Shown piece by piece: positions 7,006-31,983 of a stretch of 64,000 nt of DNA (within the stretch, counting starts at the first letter, position 1; each line of letters opens with the position of its first letter). The stretch comes from Nitrosospira multiformis (lineage in GTDB: Bacteria; Pseudomonadota; Gammaproteobacteria; Burkholderiales; Nitrosomonadaceae): NCBI GenBank assembly GCA_017306155.1, contig JAFKJB010000018.1, forward strand, positions 1 to 64,000, written 5' to 3'. Made by a program: the position numbers and the translations under genes. Below the pieces are notes generated by a model. That model was not told the DNA's origin, did no database searches, and saw nothing but the letters and a program-made list of their open reading frames with translations.

Positions 7006-10000
7006 CTTATAAAATCATTGCGTTCTGCCTCCAGCAGCGCCTGCTGGTCCTTATTGCATCGGGATTGCTGGCGGCTATCGGCCTGTTATCGTTCGAGCGT
7101 CTGCCAATACAACCCTTCCCGGACGTACAGAATGTTTTCGTACAGGTCGTGACGCAATACCCGGGACAGGCCCCCGAAGAGGTGGAAAAGCTCGTCACCC
7201 TGCCGATCGAAAAGGAAATGAATGGCCTGCTCGACCTGATCAACATACGCTCAGTATCCATTTTCGGCTTGTCGGTGGTAACGCTGACCTTTGACGATGC
7301 CGCCGAGGATTATTTTTCACGGCAGCAAGTGCTGGAGCGGTTGAAATCCGTACATCTGCCAGCGGATACCAGGCCTCTGCTCGGACCCCTGTCAACCGGT
7401 ACAGGCGAAATCTATCGCTACCGTCTGGAAGCCCCCGGGGTTCCGCTGGTGGAACAGCGCGCGCTGCAGGATTGGGTAATCGAACGTACGATTCGCTCCG
7501 TCCATGGCGTAGCGGATGTGGTGGCCTTCGGCGGCGGCATCAAGGAATACCAGGTTCAGGTGGATCCAAACAAACTCAGGAATTACAAGCTGACGATTAC
7601 CGATGTCTATGCTGCCATCAACGCCAACAATGCCAATATCGGCGGCGGCTACATCGACCATGGCAGCGAAGCATTGGTGGTTCGCGGCGCGGGCCTGCTG
7701 AAATCACTGGAAGAAATTGGCAATATCGTTATCGCCAGCAACCAGGAGGGAGTTCCCGTTTTTGTCAAGAATGTCGCCGAGGTGGTCATCGGCCCTGCGC
7801 CCCACACGGGACTGGTCGGTTTCAACGAGCATGACAGCGTGGTTGAAGGGATTGTCCTGCTGATCAAGGGCAAGGACGCGAATGAAGTATTGAAAGGCGT
7901 CAAGGCCAAAATCGAATTTCTCAATAATCACGGACTGCCGCCTGGCATCAAGATCATTCCCTTTTACGACCGAACTGAACTGGTGCGGCACACCGTTCAT
8001 ACGGTCGAGCACAATATGTTGCTAGGCGCAACACTCGTGCTGGCGATACTGGTTATTTTCCTTCGCCGGTTATGGGCCGCGTTGGTAGTGATCATCGTCA
8101 TTCCGATGTCCTTGCTGTTCGCGTTTATCCTGATTGAAACCTGGCATATTTCCGCCAATCTCATTTCGCTTGGCGCGATCGACTTCGGCCTGATTGTGGA
8201 TGCGGCGATCGTGCTGGTCGAAGCGGTGATGGTCAAGGTAACGCTGGAAATGCGCCAGCACGCTACTGCGGCGCACATGCGGCAATCGATGCTCATCACT
8301 GCGGCGGAGATGTCCCGGCCCATGCTGTTTTCCCAGGCTGTCGTAATCGTCGCTTTTCTGCCGATTTTCACCTTCCAGCGGGTTGAGGCGAAAATCTTCT
8401 CTCCGATGGCCTATACGCTCACTTTCGCCATGCTGGGTTCCCTGATCATCAGCCTGACCCTGATACCTGTACTATTGAGTTATATGCTGGGGCCAAAGCT
8501 CACGGAGTCGCATAATTCCCTGGTGCACGCCATGGAACAGCGCTATCACAAATTACTGGAAGCGGTATTGGCTAAGCCCAGAAAGTTGTTCATAGCCGCG
8601 GGCGCGGCCCTGGCTTTGGTACTGGCTTCCACGCCGCTGATCGGCACCGAATTCATGCCCAAGCTCGACGAGGGAAATATATGGCTGACCATTACCTTGC
8701 CCACGCCTGTTTCATTGGACAGGGCAAAACGGCTGGAGGAAAAGATACGGGCAAGCATACTCGAATTCCCCGAGGTCAAGTCCGTGCTCACACAACTTGG
8801 GCGTCCTGAGGATGGCACCGACCCCAAAGGTTTTAATAATCTGGAACTTCTCATCGATCTCAAGCCGAAGGAAACCTGGCGGTATGGCAAGAAAGACGAT
8901 CTGGTCAAGGCCATGAATAAGCGCCTGCAAGTATTCCCTGGCCTGCTGCTTAATTTCTCACAGGTGATCCAGGACAATGTCGAAGAGGCAATTTCGGGGG
9001 TGAAGGGCGAAATCGCCATCAAGATTTTTGGCCAGGACCTGAAGATACTCCAGGAGAAAGCCAATCAGATTACAGGCATTCTGAGAACCATAAAGGGCGC
9101 TACTGACGTGGCTGCTGAACAGCAATCAGGACTGGCTCAGCTCGTTATCTCCATAGACCGGTCTAAAATTGCCCGCTATGGTATTAATATTTCCAACGTA
9201 GAAGATGTAATCGCCATGGCCGTCGGCGGCAAGGCGGCAACGCAAATTCTTGAAGGAGAGCGGCGCTTCGACGTCACTGTGCGGTTGACTGCGGTGACGC
9301 GCGATTCAGTGGGCGCCATTGAGGATATAACGGTTTTATCGCCCAATGGCGGGCGCATTCCGTTAGCCGAACTGGCCGAGATCAAGGTCAATCAGGGGGC
9401 TTCCCGCATCGGCAGGGAAGATAACATGCGGCGTATCGCCATCAAATGTAACCTGATCGGGCGCGATCAAGGGAGTTTCGTCGCAGAGGCGCAAAAAAAA
9501 GTCGCGCAGCAGGTTCAACTGGCGCCAGGTTACGACATTGTCTGGAGTGGCCAGTTCGAGAATCAGCAGCGCGCGATGAAACGGCTGTCGTTTATTGTAC
9601 CCGTCAGTCTGATTCTGATTTTCCTCTTGCTGTTCTGGACATTCCGGTCGGCCAAGCATGCATCGCTCATTGTCATGAATGTGCCGTTCGCGCTGATCGG
9701 CGGCCTGGTCGCCCTCCTGCTGACAGGCATTCACCTGAGTGTATCGGCAGCGGTAGGTTTTGTTGCCTTATTTGGAATCGCCGTGCAAAATGGGGTGATC
9801 CTGATATCTAAAGTCAACCTGCTCAGGCGGGAGGGGCTTTCTCCATATGAAGCCATTCTGCAAGGCTCCGTCAGCCGCCTGCGGCCGGTCGTGATGACGG
9901 CCCTCGTGGCGATGCTGGGGCTGCTGCCTGCGGCGCTTTCCACCAGCGTGGGAGCGGAAGCTGTCAAACCTTTTGCGACGGTCATTATCGGCGGCCTCAT

Positions 10001-10061
10001 GAGCTCGACCATTCTTACCCTGACCATGCTTCCTGCGCTCTACTCTAATTTTGAAGAATAA
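7002..10061 (+). CDS. heavy-metal efflux RND permease, CzcA/CusA family
   Basis: A 1019-residue inner-membrane proton/metal antiporter with the RND layout of 12 TM helices and two large periplasmic loops. The GTG start overlaps the adaptor's stop codon. TM4 carries DFGLIVDAAIVLVEA, whose two Asp and one Glu match the proton-relay residues of the heavy-metal (HME) subclass. That identifies the substrate class as a metal cation rather than a drug. Which metal (Cu/Ag or Co/Zn/Cd) is left open, since the TM4 motif is intermediate. A PII-like gene follows 15 bases after the stop, and a copper-storage gene lies convergent just beyond. Confidence 0.94.
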   Translation: MTYKIIAFCLQQRLLVLIASGLLAAIGLLSFERLPIQPFPDVQNVFVQVVTQYPGQAPEEVEKLVTLPIEKEMNGLLDLINIRSVSIFGLSVVTLTFDDAAEDYFSRQQVLERLKSVHLPADTRPLLGPLSTGTGEIYRYRLEAPGVPLVEQRALQDWVIERTIRSVHGVADVVAFGGGIKEYQVQVDPNKLRNYKLTITDVYAAINANNANIGGGYIDHGSEALVVRGAGLLKSLEEIGNIVIASNQEGVPVFVKNVAEVVIGPAPHTGLVGFNEHDSVVEGIVLLIKGKDANEVLKGVKAKIEFLNNHGLPPGIKIIPFYDRTELVRHTVHTVEHNMLLGATLVLAILVIFLRRLWAALVVIIVIPMSLLFAFILIETWHISANLISLGAIDFGLIVDAAIVLVEAVMVKVTLEMRQHATAAHMRQSMLITAAEMSRPMLFSQAVVIVAFLPIFTFQRVEAKIFSPMAYTLTFAMLGSLIISLTLIPVLLSYMLGPKLTESHNSLVHAMEQRYHKLLEAVLAKPRKLFIAAGAALALVLASTPLIGTEFMPKLDEGNIWLTITLPTPVSLDRAKRLEEKIRASILEFPEVKSVLTQLGRPEDGTDPKGFNNLELLIDLKPKETWRYGKKDDLVKAMNKRLQVFPGLLLNFSQVIQDNVEEAISGVKGEIAIKIFGQDLKILQEKANQITGILRTIKGATDVAAEQQSGLAQLVISIDRSKIARYGINISNVEDVIAMAVGGKAATQILEGERRFDVTVRLTAVTRDSVGAIEDITVLSPNGGRIPLAELAEIKVNQGASRIGREDNMRRIAIKCNLIGRDQGSFVAEAQKKVAQQVQLAPGYDIVWSGQFENQQRAMKRLSFIVPVSLILIFLLLFWTFRSAKHASLIVMNVPFALIGGLVALLLTGIHLSVSAAVGFVALFGIAVQNGVILISKVNLLRREGLSPYEAILQGSVSRLRPVVMTALVAMLGLLPAALSTSVGAEAVKPFATVIIGGLMSSTILTLTMLPALYSNFEE

Positions 10062-10557: not shown

Positions 10558-10947
10558 CTATAAATCATCTGCGGGAACGCGCTCTTGTGCCCCAATACCC
10601 TGATTAGCGTAGGAGCCCGCCATTCGGCGACAACTCTCGGCGCACTCGCGGCAGGCTTTGATACACTCTTCCATGTCACCCACCTGTTCACAACTCCTGG
10701 CACAAGCTTCACAGGCCTCGGCGCAGACTCCGCAGAGTTGGCTGCTTAAAGTGGAACTGCTCAGCATGAAATTGGCCGAGGTCTGACAGATCTCGGCACA
10801 GTTCACCATGAGCCGCATATGCTCCGGGGAAACATGCTTCCCCCCTGACTCCAGGCAATGGGTCATCGCTTCGTGCAGGCATGTTTGATGGCAGCGATTA
10901 CACGCATCGATGCATGACTGCATTTTGGAATCGAGAGTATGGGTCAT
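10558..10947 (-). CDS. four-helix-bundle copper storage protein (Csp/DUF326 type)
   Basis: 129 residues with 16 Cys, mostly in CxxxC and CxxC steps along helices (positions 12, 16, 19, 23, 31, 50, 54, 72, 75, 79, 82, 86, 95, 99, 102 and 106). This is the hallmark of Csp proteins, whose four-helix bundles bind many Cu(I) ions through inward-facing thiolates. There is no Tat or Sec signal, so it should be the cytosolic Csp3-like type. A strong ribosome site (AAAGGAGG) precedes the ATG. It is convergent with the metal-efflux operon. A copper buffer fits an ammonia oxidiser, which needs copper for ammonia monooxygenase and nitrosocyanin. Confidence 0.88.
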   Translation of the reverse strand: MTHTLDSKMQSCIDACNRCHQTCLHEAMTHCLESGGKHVSPEHMRLMVNCAEICQTSANFMLSSSTLSSQLCGVCAEACEACARSCEQVGDMEECIKACRECAESCRRMAGSYANQGIGAQERVPADDL

Positions 10948-17605: not shown

Positions 17606-17686
17606 ATTTTCGCCTTGACTTTGATATGACAACTTCGGCCGGGGTTGTACTCATCACATCACATAATTCCACTAGTTATCTTTCGT

Positions 17687-20245
17687 ATGGATAAGCCACC
17701 CGGAGTTGATTCGTTAACCGGCTTGACTCGCGATGAAGCCGCGCGGCGCCTTGCGGAGAATGGATATAACGAACTTCCTTCAGCAAAGCCGCGCAATGTG
17801 CTCGCTATCGCAATTTCAGTGGCGCGTGAGCCCATGTTCATCCTTCTGATCGCCTGCGGCACAACTTATCTGCTCCTGGGAAGCAAGCAGGAGGCCCTGA
17901 TGCTGCTTGGCTTCGTATTTGTTGTCATGGGCATCACTTTTGTTCAGGAACGCAAGACCGAACGGGCGCTCGGTGCGCTGCGTGATCTTTCCAGTCCCCG
18001 TGCGCTGGTTATCCGCGGAGGAAAGCAAGAGCGCATTCCTGGCCGCGAGGTGGTTCGTGGCGATCTCATCATCCTGTCTGAGGGGGATCGTGTTCCAGCA
18101 GATGCCATTCTTCTGGAATCTGCTCATATGTCTATCGATGAATCGGTGCTCACCGGGGAATCTGTCCCGGTGCGCAAGCGTGCAAGCGATGGTCATCCCC
18201 AGGAAATGAACGCGCCGGGCGGGAATGACTTGCCGTTTATCTTTTCCAGTACGCTTGTCGTGCAGGGAAAGGGAATGGCGGTGGTTACCGGGACGGCCAC
18301 GGACACTGCCATTGGCAGGATCGGCAAGGCACTTGCGAGCATAGAGCAGAAACCAACCCGTTTGCAAGGCGAAGTCGCGCGGGTAGTGAAGCGCGTTTCC
18401 TGGATCGGTTTCGCGCTGGCGAGCATTGTTGCGCTTTGGTATGGAGCCACTCGAGGAGATTGGCTGAATGGCTTTCTTGCCGGACTAACGCTCGCGATGG
18501 CACTTCTTCCCGAGGAGTTGCCGGTTGTCCTCACGATCTTCCTGGGATTGGGGGCGTGGCGCATATCGAAGGAAAAAGTGCTGACCCGGCAAATTCCTGC
18601 CATCGAAATGCTCGGTGCGGCGACTGTCCTTTGTGTTGACAAGACAGGGACTCTCACCCAAAACCGGATGGCCGTTGCACGGATATTCAGCGCTGGCCAG
18701 ATCTTTGACGCTGCGGGAAAAGAATCATCCGGTCTGCCGGAAACATTCCATGAAACCCTTGAATTTGCCGTTCTGGCAAGCCACCGGGCTCCGTTCGACC
18801 CGATGGAGATCGCAATCCGCAACGCAGGGCACAAACTGCTGGCCGATACCGAGCATTTGCATAGCGATTGGCGGTTGATGAGCGAATATCCTCTCTCGCA
18901 TGACTTACTGGCCATGTCCCGTGTCTGGCAGTCTCCTGACCGGGTGAACTATATCATTGCCGCCAAGGGATCGCCCGAAGCGATCATAGACCTGTGCCAT
19001 CTTGAAGCGGATTCTGCGCGAGGAATCATCACTCAGGTCAACAACCTGGCTGAGCAAGGCTTGCGCGTGCTGGGAGTCGCCAAGGCTGAATTCAACCAGC
19101 AGCCTCTACCTGATCTCCAGCATGATTTCACGTTTCAGTTCCTCGGTCTGATTGCCTTGGCGGATCCCATCCGGCCGCAGGTTCCTGCTGCAATCGAGGA
19201 AAGCCGCGCCGCCGGGTTGAGGGTCATAATGATTACCGGGGATTATCCGGCCACGGCAATGAATATTGCGCGACAGATCGGGATTCAATCGCCGGAAAAT
19301 ACGATCTCAGGGTCTATGCTGGATAGCCTGAGCGATGCCGAGCTTCAGGAACGCATCCGGGCGGTAAATATCTTCTGCCGAGTCGTGCCCGAACAAAAGC
19401 TTCGCATCGTGAACGCACTCAAGGCGAGCGACGAAGTGGTGGTCATGACGGGTGATGGCGTCAATGATGCACCTGCACTGAAGTCGGCGGACATCGGTAT
19501 TGCCATGGGGAAGCGCGGGACGGATGTCGCGCGCGAGTCTGCCGCGCTGGTGCTGCTAAATGACGATTTTTCTTCGATCATCTCGGCAGTGAGACTCGGG
19601 CGGCGGATTTTCGACAATCTGCAAAAGGCCAGCGCTTTCATCATTGCGGTCCACCTTCCGATCGTTGGCCTGTCTGTCATTCCCGTGATGATGGGCTTGC
19701 CCGTAATTCTCATGCCAGTACATATTCTATTCCTCGAATTGATCATCGACCCGGCATGCTCCATCGTTTTCGAGGCGGAGCCCGAGGAGGAGGACATCAT
19801 GCGGCGACCTCCGCGATCGCCGGACACCCCGCTTTTCGATCGTGATCTGTTGATCCTCGGATTTGGGCAGGGCTTGGTTCTGCTTTTGATCGTGCAGGCG
19901 ATATTCAGCTTTGCGCTCTATCGGGGGCTTGGAGCCGATGAGGCGCGGGCAATAACTTTCATGACTCTGGTCATAGCGAGCGTGGGTCTGATTTTTACAA
20001 ACCGGTCTCGATCAAGATCGGCACTTGCCTCCCTTGAATCGCGGAATGCGGCTCTCTGGTGGGTGACAGGAGGAGCGATGGGCGGCCTCGGGCTGGTTGC
20101 CTTCGTTCCGGCACTAAGCGAGCTGTTCTCTTTTGGCAGGCTAAAACTTGCCGAGGTCGCATTTTGCCTTTTTGCCGGCCTGGTAACATTCGGCCTATTT
20201 GAAACCATGAAGCTGATCCGGGCACGCAGGCAAGTATCGTCGTGA
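17687..20245 (+). CDS. cation-translocating P-type ATPase
   Basis: About 852 residues from the ATG at 17687. It has an N-terminal cation-ATPase domain (GLTRDEAARRLAENGYNEL), actuator loop LTGESVPV, TM4 motif PEELP, phosphorylation site CVDKTGTLTQNRM, nucleotide-binding KGSPEA, hinge VVMTGDGVNDAPALKSADIG and a C-terminal TM bundle. PEELP in place of the PEGLP or CPx motifs suggests a P2-like transporter for a hard cation (Ca2+, Mg2+ or similar) rather than a heavy-metal CPx-ATPase. The ion is not certain. It follows pqiC by 81 bases and may be a separate unit. Confidence 0.88.
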   Translation: MDKPPGVDSLTGLTRDEAARRLAENGYNELPSAKPRNVLAIAISVAREPMFILLIACGTTYLLLGSKQEALMLLGFVFVVMGITFVQERKTERALGALRDLSSPRALVIRGGKQERIPGREVVRGDLIILSEGDRVPADAILLESAHMSIDESVLTGESVPVRKRASDGHPQEMNAPGGNDLPFIFSSTLVVQGKGMAVVTGTATDTAIGRIGKALASIEQKPTRLQGEVARVVKRVSWIGFALASIVALWYGATRGDWLNGFLAGLTLAMALLPEELPVVLTIFLGLGAWRISKEKVLTRQIPAIEMLGAATVLCVDKTGTLTQNRMAVARIFSAGQIFDAAGKESSGLPETFHETLEFAVLASHRAPFDPMEIAIRNAGHKLLADTEHLHSDWRLMSEYPLSHDLLAMSRVWQSPDRVNYIIAAKGSPEAIIDLCHLEADSARGIITQVNNLAEQGLRVLGVAKAEFNQQPLPDLQHDFTFQFLGLIALADPIRPQVPAAIEESRAAGLRVIMITGDYPATAMNIARQIGIQSPENTISGSMLDSLSDAELQERIRAVNIFCRVVPEQKLRIVNALKASDEVVVMTGDGVNDAPALKSADIGIAMGKRGTDVARESAALVLLNDDFSSIISAVRLGRRIFDNLQKASAFIIAVHLPIVGLSVIPVMMGLPVILMPVHILFLELIIDPACSIVFEAEPEEEDIMRRPPRSPDTPLFDRDLLILGFGQGLVLLLIVQAIFSFALYRGLGADEARAITFMTLVIASVGLIFTNRSRSRSALASLESRNAALWWVTGGAMGGLGLVAFVPALSELFSFGRLKLAEVAFCLFAGLVTFGLFETMKLIRARRQVSS

Positions 20246-21769: not shown

Positions 21770-22477
21770 ATGCTATCTGCTGAACCTGTCGCCATTTTTA
21801 CCCGGTCCTGGTCGCTCTATGATCTGATCACGGAGCACAACTACATGTTTCACCGGGAGATCTATGCCGGAGTTGGGGAGCTTTTGGGGTCGCGCGCTGA
21901 TCGGGGGGAGTATCGCCTGCTGGATCTTGGCTGCGGCAACGCCCGTTATCTTGCACCTTGCCTGAAACGTTCTCCTCCTTTGGTATACGAGGGCTTGGAC
22001 TTATCCGGGGCTGCTTTGACGGAGGCGAAGGAGTACCTTGCAGGATTGCCAGGAGAAATCAACCTGATCCAGGGGGAACTCCTGCAAACCATCGAGTCTG
22101 CGAATCAGGCATGGGATGTTATTTTCTCCGGGTTTGCCATTCATCATCTGAACCTGGATGAAAAGGCGCGGTTTTTCCAGGCAGCGGAACGCTGCCTCTC
22201 AAAAGAAGGCTGGCTGATACTGGTGGATGTGGTGCGTGAAGAAAATGAGGCTCGGGAGGACTTTTTGAAAGGTTACCTCAATTTCATGCGGGAAAAGTGG
22301 ACGGGCGTGCCGCCGGAGCAGCTGGAAGAAGCATGCGCGCATGTTCGCGACCACGACTACCCCGAATGCCTTTCCACCTTGCGAAGAATGGCCAGGGAGG
22401 CGGGGCTTCGTTCTACACGGCTGGTCAGCCGTCACGCGCAGCATCATACGCTTCTGTTTTCACGAAACGATGGATAG
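21770..22477 (+). CDS. class I SAM-dependent methyltransferase
   Basis: 235 residues with the Rossmann methyltransferase motifs: motif I LLDLGCGNARYLAP, the acidic end of strand 2 in YEGLDLSG, IQGELLQ before motif II (WDVIFSGFAIHHL) and motif III-like KEGWLILVDVV. The fold is clear but the acceptor molecule is unknown. The downstream transporter pseudogene overlaps or abuts its end, so the two were once one transcription unit. Confidence 0.85.
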   Translation: MLSAEPVAIFTRSWSLYDLITEHNYMFHREIYAGVGELLGSRADRGEYRLLDLGCGNARYLAPCLKRSPPLVYEGLDLSGAALTEAKEYLAGLPGEINLIQGELLQTIESANQAWDVIFSGFAIHHLNLDEKARFFQAAERCLSKEGWLILVDVVREENEAREDFLKGYLNFMREKWTGVPPEQLEEACAHVRDHDYPECLSTLRRMAREAGLRSTRLVSRHAQHHTLLFSRNDG

Positions 22478-23491
22478 CAGCCAAGGCAGCTTTACCAGAA
22501 TACCAAGCTCCATGTTACAGAAGCTGACCCTCCTGTTCCCCCTCTGGATGATTCTCTCGGGACTGCTTGCCTTGTATGCGCCGGAATCACTGGCCTCGTT
22601 CAACCAGGGTCCTCTGATGGTTGCGGTTCTTGCCTGCATTATGCTGGGCATGGGGCTTACACTATCCGTAGAGGATTTTCGCCGTATCGCGCGGAGCCCG
22701 CGAGCGGTAGTCATCGGCTTCGTCGCGCAGTATTCCATCATGCCTTTGACGGCATGGATAGTAGCCCAGGCGTTGAGCCTGCCGCCTTATTTCGCAGTAG
22801 GACTCATCCTGGTAGGGTGCGCTCCGGGTGGTACCGCTTCAAACCTGATCAGCTACATCGCAGGCGCCGATGTCGCGCTTTCAGTCGTCATGACAGTCTG
22901 CTCCACGCTTGCAGCCGTTATGCTCACGCCCTTGCTGACCCAGCTTTTCGCGGGCGCTCTCGTGCCGGTCGATGCCTGGCTGCTGTTCAAGCAGACTTTT
23001 CAAGTCGTGATTATTCCTATCTTTCTGGGCGTGCTGCTCAACCGGTGGGCACCTCGCCTGTCATGCGGGTTCTGCCTGTCGCTCCGCTGCTTTCAGTGGC
23101 GGGCGTGGTTTTTATCTGTACAGTGATATTTGCCGCCAATGCAGAGGCTATTCTTGCCTATAGCGGGGAGCTTATTCTGGCGACTGCGCTATTGCATGGG
23201 GCAGGCTTCCTGTTCGGTTATTACTTTGCCCGCTTGTTTGGCTATCATGGTAACAGCGCGCGCACAATTGCAATCGAGGTGGGGATGCAGAACTCGGGAC
23301 TTGCCGTTGTGCTGGCCAAACAGGCTTTTCCATTGTTGCCGCTTGCACCCGTCGTTGGCGCGGTTTCCGCCGTAATGCATTCGCTATTGGGCAGTGTGCT
23401 TGCGGCGTTGTGGCGTCAAAACCCCGCTCCAGCCCAGGAAGGATTCATTCCGCCTGTACCGCTGACAATCTCCGTGCGGCAGGAGGAATAG
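22470..23491 (+). pseudogene. bile acid:sodium symporter family (BASS) gene with a frameshift
   Basis: The first part (from ATG 22470 or 22512) encodes the N-terminal two thirds of a BASS-type transporter: LFPLWMILSGLLALY, LGMGLTLSVEDFRR, VGCAPGGTASNLISYIAGADV and ending NRWAPRL. From about 23062 the homologous continuation (MRVLPVAPLLSVAGVVFI, EVGMQNSGLAVVLA) is in the next frame. One missing base restores a full-length reading of about 330 residues. All core motifs are otherwise intact, so this is either a recent pseudogene or a sequence error. Confidence 0.85.
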
Positions 23492-23880: not shown

Positions 23881-24374
23881 ATGCTTCATACCATAAAGGC
23901 TGGCCGTTACTGACGGGAGCGATCCGTTATGAAAAGACCATTTCGACCCGTAACCGTGGACACGGGGAATTTATCGAAGCGCCGATTCCTGCCTATTTGA
24001 TCGAAACCTCGAATGGATGCATCTTATATGACGTGGGATGCAACTATCGCAAGGTTTCCGATCCCATTTTGCGTGCAAGTCATTTTGATCCCACGCTTCC
24101 GCTGGTTGAGCCGCCCAGCATGTGGGAAAGGCAGCGTATTCCCCGTTACCTGAAGAGGCTGGGCTTCGGGCCACAGGATGTGGATGTCGTGCTTATAAGT
24201 CATTTACATTTCGATCATGTCGGGGGTCTCCATGATTTGCCAGGTTGCGCTGTCCATGTCCAGGCGGAGGAGCTTGCCGCGGCGCACACGGGAGCGGATG
24301 GAAGCGTTTTTACCGACGAGTCGGCCAGCTCAAATCAGTGGGAAATCAAGACTGCGGCAAGGCGATATTCCTGA
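23881..24374 (+). pseudogene. N-acyl-homoserine-lactonase-like metallo-beta-lactamase remnant
   Basis: The frame reads TGAIRYEKTISTRNRGHGEF, then PIPAYLIETSNGCILYDVGC, then the metal motif SHLHFDHVGG, matching AHL lactonases of the metallo-beta-lactamase fold. The start is in a different frame (ATG at 23881, MLHTIKAGR), so a frameshift lies near 23905. The protein stops about half way, after VQAEELAAAH and some degenerate residues. The second His/Asp ligands are missing and it cannot be active. It is a decayed quorum-quenching-type gene. Confidence 0.7.
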
Positions 24375-24400: not shown

Positions 24401-24829
24401 TTACTTCGAGGAATGCGCACGATTCTCCGTGTTCACCACCTGCCCTTCACGTATGGCAAATTCACGTTTCGCCTGCTCTACCGCCATTTGCCGATGGGCG
24501 GCAGCTGCCCTGATATTTTCATCCGCATTCGCTTCATATTTGTGAAGGAGGGCCGCAGTATGCGACTTCAAATCCTGCGCCTGGCGTCCATAGAGATAAC
24601 CCTTCTCTTCATAATGCTCGAGTAATTTTTTCTGCTCATCAGCCTTGGTCTGCATTTCCCGGGCCGCGTTCTCAAAATACTTGCCCAACGCATCATGATC
24701 ACTGGGGGTTCTGGCGTTCTGCGCCACCCTGCGAATATTCGCGTTCTGGACGGCCTCATGCGGGCTCATTTGCGCACATGCCGCCAGTAAACCGAAGGAT
24801 AAAACTGCGAAAATTCTCCTTGTTGTCAC
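24401..24829 (-). CDS. YLYG-family exported coiled-coil lipoprotein (paralogue A)
   Basis: I set the start at a GTG preceded by AAAGGAAAG; this gives 142 residues with a lipoprotein signal (FAVLSFGLLAAC). The mature part is one long, highly charged helix with coiled-coil character. Its core LLEHYEEKGYLYGRQAQD is shared with the genes at 27432 and 28930. A conserved H-R-Q-M-A motif follows about 35 residues later. Function is unknown; a periplasmic or outer-membrane-anchored structural or stress role is conceivable. Its promoter carries the 24-bp element shared by all three paralogues, about 221 bases upstream. It is divergent from the SufR-like regulator. Confidence 0.72.
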   Translation of the reverse strand: MTTRRIFAVLSFGLLAACAQMSPHEAVQNANIRRVAQNARTPSDHDALGKYFENAAREMQTKADEQKKLLEHYEEKGYLYGRQAQDLKSHTAALLHKYEANADENIRAAAAHRQMAVEQAKREFAIREGQVVNTENRAHSSK

Positions 24830-25024
24830 GTTGCGCTTTCCTTTAAAATCAATGCGGTTAATGCCAAAAGATAGCGAAAAGATTACCAAAAACAGTGGAG
24901 TACAAAAAACAGGGAGATAGGATAGATCGCAATTCCGGGACAACTTCGCCTGAAATTGGAGGTAAAACCGGATCAAACAGAATCGAGGCGAATCAAACCT
25001 CGATTATTCTTTATTTATGAAGAA

Positions 25025-25073
25025 ATAATAAGGAATCATGGGTTATTTTGTCAACTATTTTATGTTTAAAGTG
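25025..25073 (-). promoter_or_regulatory. promoter with conserved upstream element, copy A
   Basis: Read on the minus strand: CACTTTAAACATAAA, four bases, A-G, then the -35 box TTGACA, an 18-base spacer and the -10 box TATTAT. The same 24-bp element (20 of 24 positions identical in all three copies) precedes the two other YLYG genes. Its position directly upstream of and including the -35 suggests an activator site. It lies in the 332-base divergent region before the regulator gene at 25162. Confidence 0.6.
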
Positions 25074-25161
25074 TCTTAAGACAAGACACAGGCTCTCAGT
25101 GGTTTATAATGAAGCCGGTAATTCTTATTTCTTATGACGGGGGTGGAAGGGGGTATATCAG

Positions 25162-25803
25162 ATGCTAAATACGATGGGTGAACGGCAGAAGCAGTTGCTT
25201 AAGCTTTTGCGTGGAAGCAGGCCAGGCCTGAGTGTGGATGAACTTTCAAAAGGGCTGGAGATTACAAGAAATGCAGTTCGGCAACATCTCTCTTCTCTGG
25301 AGGGAGCAGGTCTGGTAACGGCTGGAAGTACGCGTCCATCAGGAGGCGGAAGACCTCAACAGCTTTACATTCTTACCGAACTGGGCAAGGAGAGTTTTCC
25401 CCGCCAGTATTCCTGGCTGGCACAACTGGTATTAGCCTCGGTTCGGCGCGAAGAAGGTGTTGAGAACATGGGTAAGCGCTTGTCTGAAATCGGTGCAGGC
25501 ATCGCAGAGCAGATACGGGGCCAATATCCGGACTTGAATACGAGGGAGGAAAAAATCGACAAGCTGACAGAGGTAATGGATCAGCTTGGCTACAACGCGA
25601 AAATTGCTGCCTTGCCGGATGGAGAAAAGGTGATTGAAGCGGATAATTGTGTGTTTCACCAGATGGCCGCAAAAGATATCGAGATTTGTTACCTGGACCG
25701 CGGACTAATGGAAGCTTTTACCGACAGCAAGGTCGAGCAACATGAATGCATGGCTCGCGGGGGAGAGTTATGTCGATTCAGGTTTGTATCCAAAAAGGAG
25801 TAG
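25162..25803 (+). CDS. HTH transcriptional regulator with 4-Cys C-terminal domain (SufR-like)
   Basis: 213 residues. The start is supported by GGAAGGGGG upstream. Residues 8-75 form a winged helix (LSVDELSKGLEITRNAVRQHLSSLEGAGLV, wing GGGRPQQLYILT). The C-terminal half ends with four Cys at 163, 176, 196 and 204, plus nearby His 166 and 195, in a V4R-like arrangement (HECMARGGELC). SufR-type regulators ligate an Fe-S cluster with comparable Cys, so a redox- or iron-responsive role is plausible. The spacing (C-x12-C-x19-C-x7-C) is not the classical one. It is divergent from paralogue A and may control it. A strong terminator follows. Confidence 0.78.
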   Translation: MLNTMGERQKQLLKLLRGSRPGLSVDELSKGLEITRNAVRQHLSSLEGAGLVTAGSTRPSGGGRPQQLYILTELGKESFPRQYSWLAQLVLASVRREEGVENMGKRLSEIGAGIAEQIRGQYPDLNTREEKIDKLTEVMDQLGYNAKIAALPDGEKVIEADNCVFHQMAAKDIEICYLDRGLMEAFTDSKVEQHECMARGGELCRFRFVSKKE

Positions 25804-25822
25804 TTTCTACTCCTTTTTTTTT
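25792..25822 (+). terminator. rho-independent terminator of the SufR-like gene
   Basis: A perfect 12-bp stem (AAAAAGGAGTAG pairing with CTACTCCTTTTT) closes a TTT loop and runs into further T residues. It begins within the last codons of the regulator gene. It also separates that gene from the convergent pgl gene. Confidence 0.88.
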
Positions 25823-25855
25823 GCCTCGATTTTCTGTTTTCTTTTTTATTTAATC

Positions 25856-26572
25856 CTATTGCCCTTTCACCGGTAACAGTAACGCCGATTCCACGAGTAC
25901 ATCCACACCGTTTTCCCCCATTATCGCCCTGGCAGGTATTTTTTCCCCGGCCCGCCATCTTGCCACTGCCTTATGCTTTGATTCACCGTTTACCAGAAAT
26001 ATTATCCTTCGCGAGCGATTTAAACGCGCTGCACTCAGTGATACGCGCTGTGGCGGTCGCTTGGGGGAGTTGAATACTGCAAGCGTATCGGGCGAATCCG
26101 TCGCTATTCCCCAATCGTTGTCCGGGAACAGGCTTGCAGTATGACCATCTGCTCCCAATCCGAGCAGCGTCAGGTCGAAATAACCTACGCCGCGCAGTGT
26201 TTGTGCATACGCTTCCGCAGCTTTATCTGCGCGGGGACCATTGGGGATGGCATGAATCTGGGCCGGCGGAATGGATACATGGCTGAGCCATGCTTCTTCT
26301 GCCATATGGGAATTCAGTTCTTCCTGAGTGGGAGGCATGCAGCGTTCGTCTCCATAATAGATGTGCCAGAGAGACCAATCCGCTGGCGCGCTGCATAATC
26401 TCCGGTAGATTTCGCGAGGCGATTCACCCCCCGCAAGAACGAGGTTGAAGCGCCCACGCTCTTGAATGGCAGAGGCGGCGCTATCCAGGATTGCAGCCAC
26501 GGCCGCATCCTGAAGGGCTGCCAGGTCGGCATATTCATGCCATCTGTATTGTTGGAGATCGGCTGATTCCAT
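25856..26572 (-). CDS. pgl: 6-phosphogluconolactonase
   Basis: 238 residues of the NagB/RpiA-like fold, DevB/Pgl type, hydrolysing 6-phosphogluconolactone in the oxidative pentose phosphate pathway. Family blocks include NLVLAGGESPREIYRRL (phosphate loop), WHIYYGDERCMPPT, LTLLGLGADGHTASLFPDN and FLVNGESKHKAV. A GGAATC ribosome site precedes the ATG. gnd and tal lie about 4 kb upstream on the same strand, separated by DoxX and YLYG genes. No zwf gene is present in the window. Confidence 0.93.
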   Translation of the reverse strand: MESADLQQYRWHEYADLAALQDAAVAAILDSAASAIQERGRFNLVLAGGESPREIYRRLCSAPADWSLWHIYYGDERCMPPTQEELNSHMAEEAWLSHVSIPPAQIHAIPNGPRADKAAEAYAQTLRGVGYFDLTLLGLGADGHTASLFPDNDWGIATDSPDTLAVFNSPKRPPQRVSLSAARLNRSRRIIFLVNGESKHKAVARWRAGEKIPARAIMGENGVDVLVESALLLPVKGQ

Positions 26573-26635
26573 CGGGCAGAGATTCCTTTGTTATTTTGAT
26601 GTAACCATCATGAGCATTGACGGCGGCTTGCTTCA

Positions 26636-27040
26636 TCATTCCGGGCGGATGGCCCATCTTCCGCTGCCCAGGAAAAATATCGCAAGGCCTGAAAATAAAT
26701 AAAACCCTTGCAATTCAAGCGCCCATCCCCCAGTTTTGGTGAACGTAGATAACTGATCGGAGTGCGCCAATACAAGCGCAAAAATCATGTTACCAAAGAT
26801 CAGCAAGCCGCCGAGACGCGAGAAAAAGCCGAAGATCACCATTAGCGCCGCGACGACTTCACCGAGATAGACTCCGTAGGCCAGTACTGGTGGTAAATCG
26901 ATACCCGTCAATTGCTTGCTGATGAAATCAAGGGATTCCGGATTAAGTATTTTGTGCAACCCGTGAAACAGCATCAATACCCCTACAGTCAGGCGCAGAA
27001 TCAATTTGCCTAAATCATCATTTCGGAGGAAATTTTGCAT
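26636..27040 (-). CDS. DoxX family membrane protein
   Basis: 134 residues, four TM helices. It carries the family features LILRLTVGVLMLFHGLHKI near the N-terminus, then LAYGVYLGEVVAALMVIFG and FFLGSGRWAIRPE at the end. The ribosome site AAGGACATTT precedes the ATG. DoxX proteins are small inner-membrane proteins linked to redox or quinone chemistry, but the exact role is not defined. It lies 63 bases upstream of pgl on the same strand and may be co-transcribed with it. Confidence 0.88.
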   Translation of the reverse strand: MQNFLRNDDLGKLILRLTVGVLMLFHGLHKILNPESLDFISKQLTGIDLPPVLAYGVYLGEVVAALMVIFGFFSRLGGLLIFGNMIFALVLAHSDQLSTFTKTGGWALELQGFYLFSGLAIFFLGSGRWAIRPE

Positions 27041-27431
27041 AAATGTCCTTGAGAAGTTGGATATAGAAGGCCCGGGGACTTCGCTTCCTGTTTGTCCGGA
27101 CTCATCGCTTCACGGAATTATTGCGGCACTATTCCAGTTGTAATTATTGTGACTTATATTCCAGATGACCTGTCCAGCATATCATGACTGGAAGGCGAAT
27201 CGGCAGGTGACAGGGCAAACAAACAGTTTTTGCGGGTATCGGGTAGCTCCCAGGTTATCATTATTTCGCGAAATTTCAGCCGGTTCCAATGAGTGTCAGT
27301 AGAGAATCCCGGGAAGATATCTTGGGGGACTGGAGCAGGACTGCTTGTCGTCCGTGAGGACGGACAGGAAAAACGGAAGTTATGGCTATGCCGCTACGGA
27401 ATTTCTCCGTATGCTCCTACCTTCCTTGCTC
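27041..27431. other. 391-base gene-free stretch
   Basis: This separates paralogue B from the DoxX gene. Short open frames here lack ribosome sites and protein-like composition. No strong hairpin or repeat was found. Confidence 0.4.
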
Positions 27432-27899
27432 TTATTTCGATAAAACAGCGGGGGGGTAGGATTCAACAACGCTCAGCTTTCGAGTTTTTGACGCAGGGTG
27501 ATTTTTTTCTTTAAGCGTCAAAGCAATTTGACGGTGAGAGGCAGCTTCTCTTGCATCTGCCTTTGCAGCTTCTTCATGTTTTCTTACCAGGGCTTCAGTA
27601 TGCGCCTGCAGGTCCTGCGCTTTTTTTCCGTACAGGTAGCTTTTTTCCTCATAATGCGCAAGCATTGTCTCCAGTACCTTTACTTTTGCCCGCGACTTTC
27701 TTGCTTCCTCCTCGTAGTATTTGGCAACCGTTGCATGTTTTTTCATGAGCTCGTCTTCGAAATATCTCTCGACTGCCTCGTGTGCATTTGAATTCTGCTC
27801 ATCATTCTGCGTAATGGTCCGGGTATCAGAAGGGTCGGCCGCCTGGGTGATGGGCGTCAGTAAAATCAATACGGCAAGCAGGGCGCCAGTCTGTTTCAT
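27432..27899 (-). CDS. YLYG-family exported coiled-coil protein (paralogue B)
   Basis: 155 residues from MKQTGALLAVLILLTPITQA, a Sec signal peptide with no lipobox; the open frame extends upstream but without signal features. The mature region is helical and highly charged. Its core is MLAHYEEKSYLYGKKAQD, followed by H-T-E-A-L and S-H-R-Q-I-A. It is longer than the other paralogues, with an extra helical segment (VERYFEDELMKKHATVAKYY) that looks like an internal duplication of the Y-E-E region. The shared 24-bp promoter element ends 106 bases before the ATG, the same distance as for paralogue C. Confidence 0.72.
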   Translation of the reverse strand: MKQTGALLAVLILLTPITQAADPSDTRTITQNDEQNSNAHEAVERYFEDELMKKHATVAKYYEEEARKSRAKVKVLETMLAHYEEKSYLYGKKAQDLQAHTEALVRKHEEAAKADAREAASHRQIALTLKEKNHPASKTRKLSVVESYPPAVLSK

Positions 27900-27979
27900 T
27901 GTTTTACCAGAAGCAGGAATTTCAAATGGTGTTGCTTTTAACAGGCGAAAAGCAGCAGGCATTGAGCAAGCATTGCTTA

Positions 27980-28028
27980 ATGCTAGTTTATGTAAGCCCA
28001 CTTCGTCAATTTTTTTATGTTTAAAGTG
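27980..28028 (-). promoter_or_regulatory. promoter with conserved upstream element, copy B
   Basis: Minus strand: CACTTTAAACATAAA, then an A-rich linker, -35 TTGACG, an 18-base spacer and -10 TAGCAT. The element differs from copy A at only two of 24 positions. It drives paralogue B. Confidence 0.6.
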
Positions 28029-28175
28029 GTTCGTGCAAGAGTACAGGCCGTACCTGCGCTCAGGGCAACAGAGAGACAGGGAATAGACCCGAATGCCTGC
28101 ATCGGTTATTCGAATGATATATGCATCCAACAGCAGGAGTGCATGGATTTTGCTGAAGGGAAGTTACGAAGAGGA

Positions 28176-28223
28176 GCGCCGATGCAATATGGAGGAAAAT
28201 TCACTCGAATATTGCATCGGCGC
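28176..28223. repeat. long inverted repeat downstream of the small peptide gene
   Basis: GCGCCGATGCAATAT (28176-28190) and its exact complement (28209-28223) flank an 18-base spacer. It lies 51 bases past the stop of the 56-aa peptide gene and upstream of promoter copy B. No U-tract follows on either strand, so it may be an mRNA 3' structure or a small palindromic element rather than a classical terminator. Confidence 0.65.
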
Positions 28224-28273
28224 CTTTGTTGCTATTTTGGAAAAAAATCAGCGAACTTCTGTTTCTGCAAGTG

Positions 28274-28444
28274 CTACGGGTTTTGTAAGGTGGCTACTTT
28301 GTAACTGTCCTCATCAATAGTTGCGATGGAATAGCTGTTTTCTTTAACAGTGGTGACACCCGCAGCATTAAGCGCAGCAAAAACCAGCGCAACAGTCAGG
28401 CTCATAGAATAGAAAAGGCCAAGTGCTCTACCGTTAATCATCAT
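28274..28444 (-). CDS. small exported peptide, 56 aa
   Basis: An ATG-ATG start preceded by a strong GGGAGGGT ribosome site. The N-terminus MMINGRALGLFYSMSLTVAL continues as a hydrophobic, Ala-rich signal or membrane segment to about residue 28. A polar, Tyr/Ser/Asp-rich tail (KENSYSIATIDEDSYKVATL) follows. The tail is short enough that this could be a secreted peptide or a single-pass membrane peptide. Its -10 region is identical over 17 bp to that of paralogue C, so it likely belongs to the same regulon. No family is recognised. Confidence 0.6.
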   Translation of the reverse strand: MMINGRALGLFYSMSLTVALVFAALNAAGVTTVKENSYSIATIDEDSYKVATLQNP

Positions 28445-28521
28445 ACCCTCCCGAAATCGATAGCGAAAAAAGGCTACTTTTAAAGCTACTTTTGCTACTT
28501 TCTACTACGTTTGTGAAGCAT

Positions 28522-28556
28522 ATGTGAAGAATATGTGAGGAATTCACATTTGTAAA
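28522..28556 (-). promoter_or_regulatory. promoter of the 56-aa peptide gene
   Basis: Minus strand: -35 TTTACA (28551-28556), 17-base spacer, -10 TATTCT (28528-28533). The -10 sits inside TCACATATTCTTCACAT, a 17-bp stretch repeated exactly in the promoter of paralogue C (29437-29453). The long leader that follows contains three copies of AAAGTAGC. Confidence 0.55.
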
Positions 28557-28929
28557 GTATTTTTTGACAGGAATCTGCTTTGATTGAGCTCTGTCAATCT
28601 TGCATTAATTTCCGTTTTTAGATCAGGTGAAGAATGATTTATCCGGCATGAATCCTTCTGCTGGAAAGGTGCTTATTGCGACGTTGTTCCAGAGTGACGC
28701 AGGAACCAGTTTTATTGAGGGATGTGCAGCGAATTTTGTTACGGGGTTTAGATTCCGCAGCAATTTAGAAAGAGAGGGGAAGTATCCTCGAATCCGGGAG
28801 GTGAACCGAGGGGTAAGATAGTCCGAAAGGTATGAAATATTGGCAGCAATATACGGATGTTCATCCGTACATTGCCGTTTCTGATTACATTACTCTGAGA
28901 TTAACTCAGACAAGAATAGATCCTGATTC
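28557..28929. other. gene-poor stretch with two dyads
   Basis: TTGACAG (28564-28570) and CTGTCAA (28591-28597) form an operator-like dyad 20 bases apart, just upstream of the peptide promoter. At 28847-28874 GCAATATACGGATG faces CATCCGTACATTGC with a two-base loop and one mismatch. The frame 28627-28821 (plus) could give a 64-aa product, but it lacks recognisable features. Confidence 0.4.
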
Positions 28930-29361
28930 CTAATGCAAATCGGAAATCGTGCTCAGCTGTTGAAGGCTGTCACTGTGGGTGAAGTCGCTCTCTTCGATCT
29001 GCAAGGCCATTTGCCGGTGCAATGCCGCTTCCCTGGTATTGGCTTGCGCCTCCTTCTCATACTTGCGTGCCAATGCGTAAGTATGGGCCAGCTTGTCCTG
29101 GGCTTCTCTGCCATAGAGGTAGCTTTTATTCTCGTACTGCTCAAGCAGGCGTTTCTGCTCGTGTGCTTTTGCCTGCGTCTCCATGGCCGCGTTGTCGTAA
29201 TACCTGGCGACGGCTTCATGATCACTTCTGGTCACTGCGTTACGCGACGCTGCATCGACATCAAAACCTTCCACCTCGGCCGCCTGGACAGGCAAGCTCA
29301 TTGTTGCCATGAACATAAGGCTGAGCAGGGAAAATTTGGCGATAATCTTATCGATCTTCAT
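28930..29361 (-). CDS. YLYG-family exported coiled-coil protein (paralogue C)
   Basis: 143 residues from the ATG at 29361, which has a GAAGAGG ribosome site; a GTG two codons earlier is possible. The signal peptide runs to about PVQA (IIAKFSLLSLMFMATMSLPVQA). The mature helical protein carries DHEAVARYYDNAAMETQ, the core LLEQYENKSYLYGREAQD, ALARKYE and LHRQMAL, closely matching paralogue A over about 80 residues. No TM or enzymatic motif follows. The three genes probably arose by duplication and are still spaced through a 5-kb block on one strand. Confidence 0.72.
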   Translation of the reverse strand: MKIDKIIAKFSLLSLMFMATMSLPVQAAEVEGFDVDAASRNAVTRSDHEAVARYYDNAAMETQAKAHEQKRLLEQYENKSYLYGREAQDKLAHTYALARKYEKEAQANTREAALHRQMALQIEESDFTHSDSLQQLSTISDLH

Positions 29362-29436
29362 TATCACACCTCTTCAGGCGCCATCATCATTCATGGAATA
29401 ACTGGATCAATCGGGTTATCGGTATCCAGTTTCTAC

Positions 29437-29490
29437 ATGTGAAGAATATGTGAACATCGGAACTTAGTCAACTTGTTTATGTTTTAAGTG
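29437..29490 (-). promoter_or_regulatory. promoter with conserved upstream element, copy C
   Basis: Minus strand: CACTTAAAACATAAA, short linker, -35 TTGACT, 17-base spacer, -10 TATTCT. The 24-bp upstream element matches copies A and B at 20 invariant positions. The -10 region (TCACATATTCTTCACAT) is identical to that of the 56-aa peptide promoter. Confidence 0.6.
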
Positions 29491-29889: not shown

Positions 29890-30795
29890 CTACTCCTTCT
29901 TTATCGCATGTCCGCCGAACTCGTTGCGCAGCGCGGACAGCAATTTGTCGGAGAACGAATCGGAATCACGCGATCGCAATCGCTGCAACAATGACAAGGT
30001 AATGACAGGCGCGGCGACGTTCAGGTCTATCGCCTCGGCAACGGTCCAGCGTCCCTCCCCGGAATCGGCAACGTAGGGGGCAATGCCGTCGAGGCTCGGG
30101 TTTTTTTCCAGTGCAGCGGTGGTCAGATCGAGCAGCCAGGATTGAATCACGCTGCCATAACGCCAGATTTCCGCCACCTGGTGCAAGTCCAGCTTGAATT
30201 CCTTCTTATGGTGCATGATTGCAAAACCTTCGCCGTAAGCCTGCATTATTCCGTACTCGATACCATTGTGGACCATTTTGGTAAAATGACCTGCCCCGCA
30301 TGGACCAACGTGGCCCCATCCTTTATTTGGGCCGGGAGCAAGTGTTTCAAAGAGGGGTCGCAGGTGCTCCACCACGGTATCTTCGCCACCCACCATCACA
30401 CTGTAGCCGTTTTCAAGACCCCAGACACCCCCGCTGGTGCCCGCATCGACATAGTGAATCTTGTGTGTTTTAAGCATTTCTGCCCGGCGTTGGGTATCCT
30501 TGTAATCCGAGTTTCCGCCATCGATGATAATGTCATCCGCCTCCAGCAGCGGTATTAAAATGCCCAGAGTTTCATCCACCGGTTTTCCTGACGGAATCAT
30601 CAGCCAGATGATGCGCTGCGGCTTCAGCTTGCTAACCAGGTCCTCCACCGAGGAGGCGGCGATGAGGCCTTTTGCTTCCAGCTGCTTCACCGTATTAGTA
30701 CTGCGAGCGTAACCGGCCACCTGGTGTCCCGCCTGCATCAGCCGTTGCGACATCGCGCCTCCCATTTTTCCCAATCCAATCATTCCCAGTTCCAT
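29890..30795 (-). CDS. gnd: 6-phosphogluconate dehydrogenase, decarboxylating (short form)
   Basis: 301 residues, matching the short (GntZ/YqeC-type) 6PGDH class rather than the 470-residue E. coli type. The N-terminal Rossmann fold starts MELGMIGLGKMGGAMSQRL. The substrate region has DAGTSGGVWGLENGY, and the catalytic Lys/Asn pair lies in GHFTKMVHNGIEYG. It oxidises 6-phosphogluconate to ribulose 5-phosphate. The short class often prefers NAD+. A GGGAGGG ribosome site precedes the ATG. tal lies 54 bases upstream on the same strand, so tal-gnd is an operon. Confidence 0.94.
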   Translation of the reverse strand: MELGMIGLGKMGGAMSQRLMQAGHQVAGYARSTNTVKQLEAKGLIAASSVEDLVSKLKPQRIIWLMIPSGKPVDETLGILIPLLEADDIIIDGGNSDYKDTQRRAEMLKTHKIHYVDAGTSGGVWGLENGYSVMVGGEDTVVEHLRPLFETLAPGPNKGWGHVGPCGAGHFTKMVHNGIEYGIMQAYGEGFAIMHHKKEFKLDLHQVAEIWRYGSVIQSWLLDLTTAALEKNPSLDGIAPYVADSGEGRWTVAEAIDLNVAAPVITLSLLQRLRSRDSDSFSDKLLSALRNEFGGHAIKKE

Positions 30796-30849: not shown

Positions 30850-31983
30850 TCAGGCTGTCTGGTCGCTGGTGGCGAGAATCTCCTGGCGCTTTTTCTTCAG
30901 TGCGGCAAGCAGCTTGTCATAGGAGACAGCGAACGAATCCACCCCATCGTTTTGAAGTTTTTCGGTAGCTGCATTGAGATCGATCCCCAGCTTTTTAAGT
31001 TGCGCGACATCGGCTTCAGCTTGTGCGAGTCCTTTTCCAAGGGTTTCGCTAACTCGCCCATGATCCCGGAATGCTTCCAGCGTTTTGAGTGGCAGCGTAT
31101 TGACGGTATCGGAGCCGATCAATTCCTCGACATACAGCACATCCGAATATGAGGGATTTTTGGTGCTGGTGCTGGCCCACAACGGCCGCTGGACGTGTAC
31201 GCCTTTCTTGCGCCAGGAATCAAATGGCTCTCCGTAAAATGTCTCGCGGAAGCGTTGATAGGCAAGCTTGGCATTGGCAATGGCAATTTTCCCGCGTAAG
31301 GCGAGCGCTTCCGGGGTCCCGATCTTTTCCAGCATGGGATCGATTACGTTATCCACCCGGCTGACGAAAAACGAGGCGACCGAAACAGGCCATGTCTTGT
31401 TTCCACCCGGTGAATAGGCCTCACGGCGCTCAAGTCCCGTGAGGTACGCGCGGGCCACGGCATCATAGTGGCGCAGAGAGAACATCAGGGTGACATTGAC
31501 ATTGATGCCTTCGCTTATCAGTTGCTCGATTGCTGGAATCCCCTCGTGGGTACCGGGAATTTTAATCATGAGGTTGGGCCGCTCCACGGCTTGCCACAGG
31601 CGTTTGGCTTCCGCAATACTGCCTCCGGTATCCCGTGCCAGATGGGGTGATACCTCCAGGCTGACGTATCCGTCTCCACCATGAGTTTCATCATATACGG
31701 GCCGCAACACATCTGCGGCCATGCGAATATCTTCGATAGCCAGCGACTCGAACAGGGTCTTTTCGGTTTGTTTTTCATTGGCCCGCAATAGCTGGCGCAG
31801 CGTATCGTCGTAAGCATCGCTGTGCCCGATTGCCTGCTCGAAAATGGTGGGATTGCTTGTCAGGCCATGCAGCTTATCGCCGGTTACCAGGCGCTGCAGT
31901 TGCCCGCTCTTGATGAGATCGCGGCTGATCGAATCCAGCCAGACAGATTGTCCGCATTGCAATAGCTGTTCCAATGGGTTCAT
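30850..31983 (-). CDS. tal: transaldolase
   Basis: 377 residues, the longer bacterial transaldolase subfamily. LHGLTSNPTIFEQAI marks the N-terminal barrel strand, and the Schiff-base Lys lies in PNLMIKIPGT. INVNVTLMFSLRHYDAVA and VSVASFFVSRVDNVID are further conserved strands. It links the pentose phosphate pathway to glycolytic intermediates. GGAGAACAACAC precedes the ATG. It is first in a two-gene operon with gnd. Confidence 0.94.
   Translation of the reverse strand: MNPLEQLLQCGQSVWLDSISRDLIKSGQLQRLVTGDKLHGLTSNPTIFEQAIGHSDAYDDTLRQLLRANEKQTEKTLFESLAIEDIRMAADVLRPVYDETHGGDGYVSLEVSPHLARDTGGSIAEAKRLWQAVERPNLMIKIPGTHEGIPAIEQLISEGINVNVTLMFSLRHYDAVARAYLTGLERREAYSPGGNKTWPVSVASFFVSRVDNVIDPMLEKIGTPEALALRGKIAIANAKLAYQRFRETFYGEPFDSWRKKGVHVQRPLWASTSTKNPSYSDVLYVEELIGSDTVNTLPLKTLEAFRDHGRVSETLGKGLAQAEADVAQLKKLGIDLNAATEKLQNDGVDSFAVSYDKLLAALKKKRQEILATSDQTA

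Follow-up and report, generated by a model that had tools for sequence, protein, structure and literature searches.

Three exported proteins encoded in one 5-kb block of Nitrosospira multiformis (within a 64,000-nucleotide stretch of contig JAFKJB010000018.1, assembly GCA_017306155.1, called the window here) belong to a genus-wide family whose ligand-rich form, a lipoprotein bearing an HPMDM motif, is mostly encoded beside heavy-metal efflux genes, chiefly of the copper type. The metal link of the family is well supported; a role of the window copies themselves in metal stress is something we only infer. Our tentative interpretation, to which we would give a little under an even chance, is that the window copies are stress-induced hairpins of the cell envelope that buffer metal or stabilize proteins. 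The most economical account is that the ligand-rich form serves metal efflux by resistance-nodulation-division (RND) pumps in methane and ammonia oxidizers, and that Nitrosospira multiplied the family with selective loss of ligands and two dedicated controls.

All three genes lie on the minus strand, where an earlier sequence-only reading of the window had placed them. Gene A (24401..24829; GTG start at 24829, stop ending at 24401) encodes a 142-amino-acid (aa) lipoprotein with the lipobox LLAAC, gene B (27432..27899; ATG start at 27899, stop ending at 27432) a 155-aa exported protein with a 16-aa insert preceding a conserved His, and gene C (28930..29361; ATG start at 29361, stop ending at 28930) a 143-aa exported protein; the starts given are the likely ones. 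The signal peptides of B and C lack a lipobox cysteine, in agreement with the earlier description of one lipoprotein and two ordinary signal peptides, export signals having been judged by inspection and not by a signal-peptide program. The proteins would thus occupy different envelope sites, with A lipid-anchored and B and C soluble. In BLASTP comparisons A matches C at 47% over 118 aa (E = 3e-34), B matches C at 47% over 92 aa (E = 6e-24) and A matches B at 36% over 122 aa (E = 7e-19). These pairwise scores of 77–108 bits (without composition correction) stand far above the best of 1000 shuffles (30–32 bits), and A, B and C are true paralogs, as had been proposed. The Y-E-x-K-x-YLYG-x-x-AQD core and the H-R-Q-x-A motif said to be common to them are present in all three. 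The proposal had allowed that a homology search might find the genes unrelated or assign them to a known family; they are related, and no Pfam, NCBIfam or PDB family fits.

The sequence-only reading treated these paralogs as a special set, whereas they form part of a much larger family. A profile of A, B and C found nine places in the 3.02-Mb draft genome, in which the window lies on contig 25 and whose closest named relatives are strains of N. multiformis: the three genes and six others (C20:94318, C22:87569, C8:29283, C8:45239, C2:164024 and a truncated copy at C28:58960). The profile matches number ten because gene B was split in two. Gene A matches the family profile at E = 1.3e-71, that profile itself including gene A. 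All 23 genomes of the genus match, with 3–24 matches each, as do 14 of 300 genomes of the order and 7 of 369 of the class (window genome counted; the best 13 or 10 candidates per genome were scored in the order and class searches). A search with the back-translated YxYG core, in one genome each for 84,980 species, gave 68 stretches, 60 of them confirmed, at 57 loci: 55 in Nitrosospira/Nitrosovibrio, one in Crenothrix polyspora and one in Methylomonas lenta. A wider profile retrieved 1581 proteins, and most of the 120 listed rows give no organism; genera are named for the rest, namely Methylobacter, Methylosarcina, Methyloglobulus, Nitrosomonas and Nitrosospira. The window copies combine the profile match with the near-invariant DH and HR-M positions that mark this unnamed YxYG / DH-HR hairpin family. 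For the analyses below, 193 family open reading frames (ORFs) were reduced to 185 by dropping identical C-termini, and the 182 of at least 100 aa were placed in a tree; part of the genus copies was fetched, with most listed copies covered in six genomes.

Evidence for a metal link comes from gene neighborhoods. Flanks of family copies were fetched regardless of metal genes, and relatives of reference genes from the window genome were then sought nearby, a copy being termed efflux-linked if a relative of CusA, CusB, CusF or a copper ATPase lies on the same strand within 4.5 kb. By this definition 19 of the 185 distinct ORFs are efflux-linked. They comprise 11 of the 13 copies with an HPMxM motif (chosen for H25, M27 and M29 in Crenothrix numbering, used throughout) versus 8 of the 172 others (Fisher p = 3e-11, with no correction for kinship). 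One broken gene (L125) accounts, in two pieces, for two of these eight. Among Nitrosospira/Nitrosovibrio copies that reach 100 aa, a set that does not contain the L125 pieces, linkage was seen for 5 of 7 HPMxM copies versus 0 of 148 others. The unlinked HPMxM copies are one at L192 and C8:45239 of the window genome (L016), which is about 16 kb away from the linked one.

The linked copy of the window genome, C8:29283 (L015), has a lipobox followed by HPMDM, an HC dyad and metal-efflux neighbors, with cusF (PF11604) on one side and a copper-type P-ATPase on the other. In Crenothrix (L120), cusCBA is followed by the lipoprotein gene and then a multicopper oxidase; in Methylomonas lenta (L123), two family genes come after it, then an HD-domain gene and a P-ATPase. 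A heavy-metal-binding domain is present in the ATPases at both L015 and L123. Linkage also occurs in other Nitrosospira loci (L168, L179, L194), in a genus of the same family, g2, that is likely Nitrosomonas (L149, L150, L154), and elsewhere in the order or class (L137, L142, L144, L145, L146). Six records in a plasmid collection match the Crenothrix protein, all from methanotrophs (four Methylomonas and two Methylobacter, the latter from one strain and with the same annotated protein). On all six, the family gene is annotated as a "hypothetical protein" and shares its strand with nearby RND metal-efflux genes; a TolC gene is in view on five, and the sixth has a heavy-metal P-ATPase directly upstream. 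Of the six, two that do not come from the one Methylobacter strain have Tn3 transposase genes nearby. We propose that the HPMDM lipoprotein may bind Cu(I), either handing it to the CusCBA pump or guarding the pump. As a separate observation, at L015 the copper P-ATPase that neighbors the HPMDM copy is split over two overlapping ORFs (7769–10041 of that locus), through a frameshift or an assembly error.

The residue pattern separates the two forms of the family. The 13 HPMxM proteins all keep H42, H48, H87 and H109, and M56 is present in 11, M105 in 10, M112 in 9, and H63 and C88 in 8 each. The 148 multiplied copies of Nitrosospira/Nitrosovibrio, defined by the lack of HPMxM, have M27, C88 and M105 in none, M29 in one, H63 in 5, H48 in 19 and H25 in 21, and retain H42 in 147, H109 in 143, H87 in 119, M112 in 100 and M56 in 88. 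The loss was thus selective and did not extend to every soft ligand. Gene A keeps H25, H42, M56, H87, H109 and M112; gene B keeps H42, H87 and H109; and gene C keeps these three and M112. The multiplied copies probably descend from the HPMDM lipoprotein, a direction that is only inferred because the tree has no fixed root, and the window copies may keep a weaker, His-based metal role.

The same losses are compatible with a different model, in which the multiplied copies have no metal role and serve as general periplasmic hairpin holdases or spacers (Skp/Spy-like), recruited after ligand loss and induced by envelope stress via the upstream elements P1 or P2 described below. The modeled fold, a charged helical hairpin, would suit such a role, as would the label "Skp family chaperone" that some sources attach to members, albeit as an automatic name. 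However, the retention of H42, H109, M112 and M56 argues against it, P1-type copies are divergent to cusC/cusB at three loci, each in its own genome (L158, L191, L196), and the Pfam Skp and Spy families are unmatched at E ≤ 1 (for Spy/CpxP LTXXQ, by A, B and C). We consider this metal-free, chaperone-like role the main rival but somewhat unlikely, and we favor a residual metal-buffering or stabilizing role.

AlphaFold models of two members support the hairpin description. The gene C protein is modeled as an antiparallel two-helix hairpin (residues 45–78 and 85–142; mean predicted local distance difference test [pLDDT] 82.6, predicted template modeling score [pTM] 0.66) and the Crenothrix protein as a single antiparallel two-helix hairpin (pLDDT 88.7, pTM 0.70). 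The term "coiled-coil" used in the sequence-only reading is thus right as to helical character, but the gene C model is better described as a hairpin. By simple mirror geometry, H42 would stand opposite H109 in the modeled hairpin. Comparison with structures in the PDB returned generic helical hairpins only.

Linkage to TolC–adaptor–RND genes could alternatively mean that the lipoprotein assists the efflux pump structurally, with its hairpin docking on TolC/CusC or CusB helices and the Nitrosospira copies serving other tripartite pumps. Foldseek did return rows containing the lipoprotein YbjP bound to TolC-AcrABZ (E = 1.5 and 2.3, the matching chain not identified), but these matches are at chance level and the window genes lie at least 14 kb from the RND operon, and we regard this alternative as improbable.

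That the proteins have no described function, as had been supposed, agrees with the libraries searched. None of A, B and C passed a cut-off in Pfam, NCBIfam or PADLOC (PADLOC returned a single chance-level row for gene C, E = 0.02), and the scanned proteins fall under none of the Pfam, NCBIfam or PDB families. Sequence searches of the PDB found no relative with either of two profiles, A3 returning the designed helical barrel 8qae at E = 3e-6 with weaker rows and A2 one row at E = 0.19. No title or abstract opening about the family was found in literature listings. The portion of a copper-protein table considered here (PMC6769254) contains no such family, and two abundant uncharacterized N. multiformis proteins, Q2Y9X6 and Q2Y9X8, from the part of PMC5960693 considered could not be mapped to family genes.

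Several known families nonetheless invite comparison. CusF (PF11604), the periplasmic Cu(I)/Ag(I) chaperone of CusCBA, is likewise a small exported protein encoded in cus operons and, like the HPMDM form, bears Met and His. It differs in that the family is predicted to form a helical hairpin, that the HPMDM form is a lipoprotein and that at L015 the family gene is additional to CusF; the CusF_Ec model PF11604 is unmatched at E ≤ 1 by A, B and C, whereas the neighboring CusF of L015 does match it. LIC10421/LIC12816 (NF047569) matches gene C faintly over its full length (E = 3e-4; 20.8–20.9 bits versus a cut-off of 100) and gene A at 12.4 bits (E = 0.12), with no match to gene B. Any likeness to DUF4398 (PF14346) is in name only, as given to members by some UniRef records; no match at E ≤ 1 was found in 13 proteins (the three of the window and ten homologs). 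The Csp copper-storage proteins of methanotrophs are all-helical, copper-linked and Cys-lined, and A, B and C differ from such Cys-rich four-helix bundles in that Cys is absent from mature B and C and confined in mature A to the lipobox; the Crenothrix HPMDM protein has one Cys besides the lipobox. Periplasmic stress proteins of the Spy/CpxP/CnrX type are all-helical hairpins that respond to metal or envelope stress, from which the family differs in its motifs and to which A, B and C show no Pfam match at E ≤ 1. Nor do the window copies belong to the HPMDM form, the accessory lipoprotein of Cus operons, as they have neither HPMDM nor HC and lie outside efflux operons.

Two upstream elements are near-exclusive to family genes. 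P1, a 24-bp element, CACTTWAAACATAAANNANTTGAC, precedes gene A (25050..25073, minus strand, 0 mismatches, ending in the −35-like TTGAC), gene B (28005..28028, minus strand) and gene C (29467..29490, minus strand). Exact P1 occurs only at these three sites in the 3.02-Mb genome, and allowing up to three mismatches adds only C8:20660. Across 12 genus genomes, the consensus at up to two mismatches has 40 sites and its reversed control none, with 38 of the 40 under 450 bp ahead of a family gene on the same strand (placement by locus check for 30 sites and by coordinates for the other 10). One stray site (L218) precedes a different exported protein in a pentose-phosphate block. The other, C8:20660 of the window genome (L022), is followed by an apparent decayed start of a family lipoprotein, divergent to the cus operon; the equivalent position holds an open P1-type copy in other species (L158, L191, L196). 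After this decayed start (G000:C8:20660) there is an ORF that by eye resembles the exported protein of L218.

The distance from P1 to the start codon varies from about 86 to 252 bp. Downstream of the P1 of gene C, the stretch TTCACATATTCTTCACAT (29437..29454, minus strand) holds a −10-like TATTCT, and by eye a TATTCT/TATAAT-like hexamer lies about 17 bp beyond the TTGAC. Similar stretches are visible by eye in several P1 leaders of other species, and the TTCACATATTCTTCACAT motif recurs with one mismatch upstream of the 56-aa peptide gene of the block (28522..28539, minus strand). Together, TTGAC and the −10-like hexamer would suggest a sigma-70 promoter preceded by a fixed box, and P1 may be an activator site that abuts the −35 box.

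Within the window genome, the second element, P2, GGGTTTCCCTTAGTA, is confined to the leaders of the C20 and C22 copies. A scan of the 12 genomes with its longer form gave 35 sites (control 0), two of them at contig ends, and 32 of the 33 testable sites lie upstream of same-strand family genes, usually about 100 bp ahead of the start codon; the exception (L253) is about 90 bp from a family gene in the opposite orientation. Where a LuxR-type regulator gene stands no more than 400 bp from a family copy (14 cases; domains scanned for the L014 pair), 13 of the copies have P2 at up to five mismatches, and P2 may be read by such a regulator, sometimes encoded next door. None of the 19 ORFs with efflux linkage shows P1 or P2 at up to five mismatches. 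Among the 182 copies in the tree are 53 with P1, 54 with P2, 17 that are efflux-linked and 58 with neither, so that about a third are without an assigned element. The unbiased counts are those of the 12-genome scans; the other element counts use loci partly fetched for family matches. That P1 and P2 are mere leftovers of recent duplication seems quite improbable: their labels are clustered on the family tree (16 changes for P1 and 15 for P2; shuffled means 46 and 47), but the elements often agree within 0–2 mismatches though the copies' protein identity is about 35–55%, the spacing of P1 varies as described while its end is TTGAC, followed by a −10-like box as judged by eye, and 0 of 925 base-shuffled leaders come within four mismatches of P1 or five of P2.

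Three minor features of P2 leaders may be added. A hairpin, AGGATGAA...TTCATCCT, is present in two leaders of the window genome and, by eye, poorly kept in the part of the other leaders viewed. At L107 and L111 a degenerate P1-like box stands directly before P2; the sequences hint that P1 and P2 may share an origin. P2 sites also lie 91 bp from a contig end at the start of G016:C8 (L236) and the end of G016:C32 (L256), which suggests that family copies may break assemblies.

A number of observations weigh against a metal role for the window copies. They are without HPMDM, the HC cysteine (Cys88) and Met105, which makes metal binding by them doubtful, and the multiplied copies as a class show no same-strand efflux linkage. 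The tree, besides its missing root, has few columns and long branches. The window block is not a metal operon, its neighbors being pentose-phosphate genes, DoxX and a SufR-like regulator, and the RND operon of the window (4194–10061) ends 14 kb from it. Copper is a candidate metal only: there is a cation transporter in one plasmid operon, mer genes lie upstream in two, and L137 has what we take to be a cation-transporter-like gene. A test for a ligand ladder along the hairpin gave no support (stripe p = 0.09 and 0.03, level p = 0.56). Finally, association of the family with ammonia monooxygenase (AMO) or particulate methane monooxygenase is loose, two AMO-bearing relatives being without the family.

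Ammonia and methane oxidizers depend on copper membrane monooxygenases, and copper must cross the periplasm. A bolder model, which we consider rather unlikely, is that Nitrosospira remade a copper-efflux lipoprotein shared with methane oxidizers into a family of envelope hairpins partitioned by promoter: a single metal-loaded HPMDM form at the pump, and numerous ligand-poor forms, controlled by two private regulons, that would buffer or scaffold copper traffic around ammonia monooxygenase. AMO association did not hold as a strict rule. Of the 80 genomes tested for the AMO marker PF02461, 6 of the 18 family carriers outside the genus had it, as did 2 of the 4 from the genus. Non-carriers, picked from the order and class searches, had it in 2 of 3 same-family genomes and 0 of 55 others. 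The marker was not found in genus genomes G000 and G010, presumably through assembly gaps at a repeated operon. Our work describes a metal-efflux-linked lipoprotein family, unnamed in the libraries searched and common to ammonia and methane oxidizers, with up to 24 matches per Nitrosospira genome, and makes named genes, residues and DNA elements available for direct tests of metal handling in nitrifiers.

The order of the block in the window is transaldolase, Gnd, gene C, the peptide gene, gene B, DoxX, Pgl, the SufR-like regulator and gene A, with the interleaved genes as first described. The transaldolase (Tal; 30850..31983) and 6-phosphogluconate dehydrogenase (Gnd; 29890..30795), both on the minus strand, form part of the conserved block by synteny, and their names are presumed and not from a domain scan. 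The 56-aa exported peptide gene (28274..28444, minus strand) gave no Pfam family over cut-off. The DoxX-family membrane protein (26636..27040, minus strand) matches PF07681 at E = 1e-17, and 6-phosphogluconolactonase (pgl; 25856..26572, minus strand) matches PF01182 at E = 4e-65, its finer name being that of the sequence-only reading. The SufR-like winged-helix regulator (25162..25803, plus strand) matches TIGR02702 at E = 9.5e-15 and 54.8 bits, under the cut-off of 178.8. Parts of the block recur among 64 Nitrosospira/Nitrosovibrio loci, window included (transaldolase, Pgl and the SufR-like regulator in 14 each; Gnd and DoxX in 12 each), and the family-gene positions are retained in, for example, L069, L070, L072, L100, L157 and L188. 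The peptide gene occurs only in the window, L069, L070, L100 and L188 among the fetched loci. Directly downstream of it, a 48-bp stretch (28176–28223) matches its own reverse strand at 82% and is perhaps a terminator or an intergenic repeat.

Other features of the window were noted in passing. Adjoining gene A is a short 125-aa ORF (23997–24374, plus strand), for which we assume a metallo-beta-lactamase fold and which looks truncated because the other 12 members of its cluster have 221–300 aa. A gene that we take to be bile-acid/sodium symporter-like (22341–23491, plus strand) is seemingly split across two frames. A large P-type ATPase ORF (17645–20245, plus strand), 4.2 kb from gene A and on the opposite strand, passed a loose Cu-ATPase search and is presumably of the calcium type. 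A Cys-rich helical protein (10558–10947, minus strand) adjoins the RND efflux operon and a two-component pair (1552–3652); we take it to resemble the four-helix copper-storage proteins, its name and those of its neighbors being likewise our assumption. An exported protein at 58590–59102 (minus strand) contains two similar Cys-rich units (PCxGPSxIKCxxGMxCxDDPSDxCDP).

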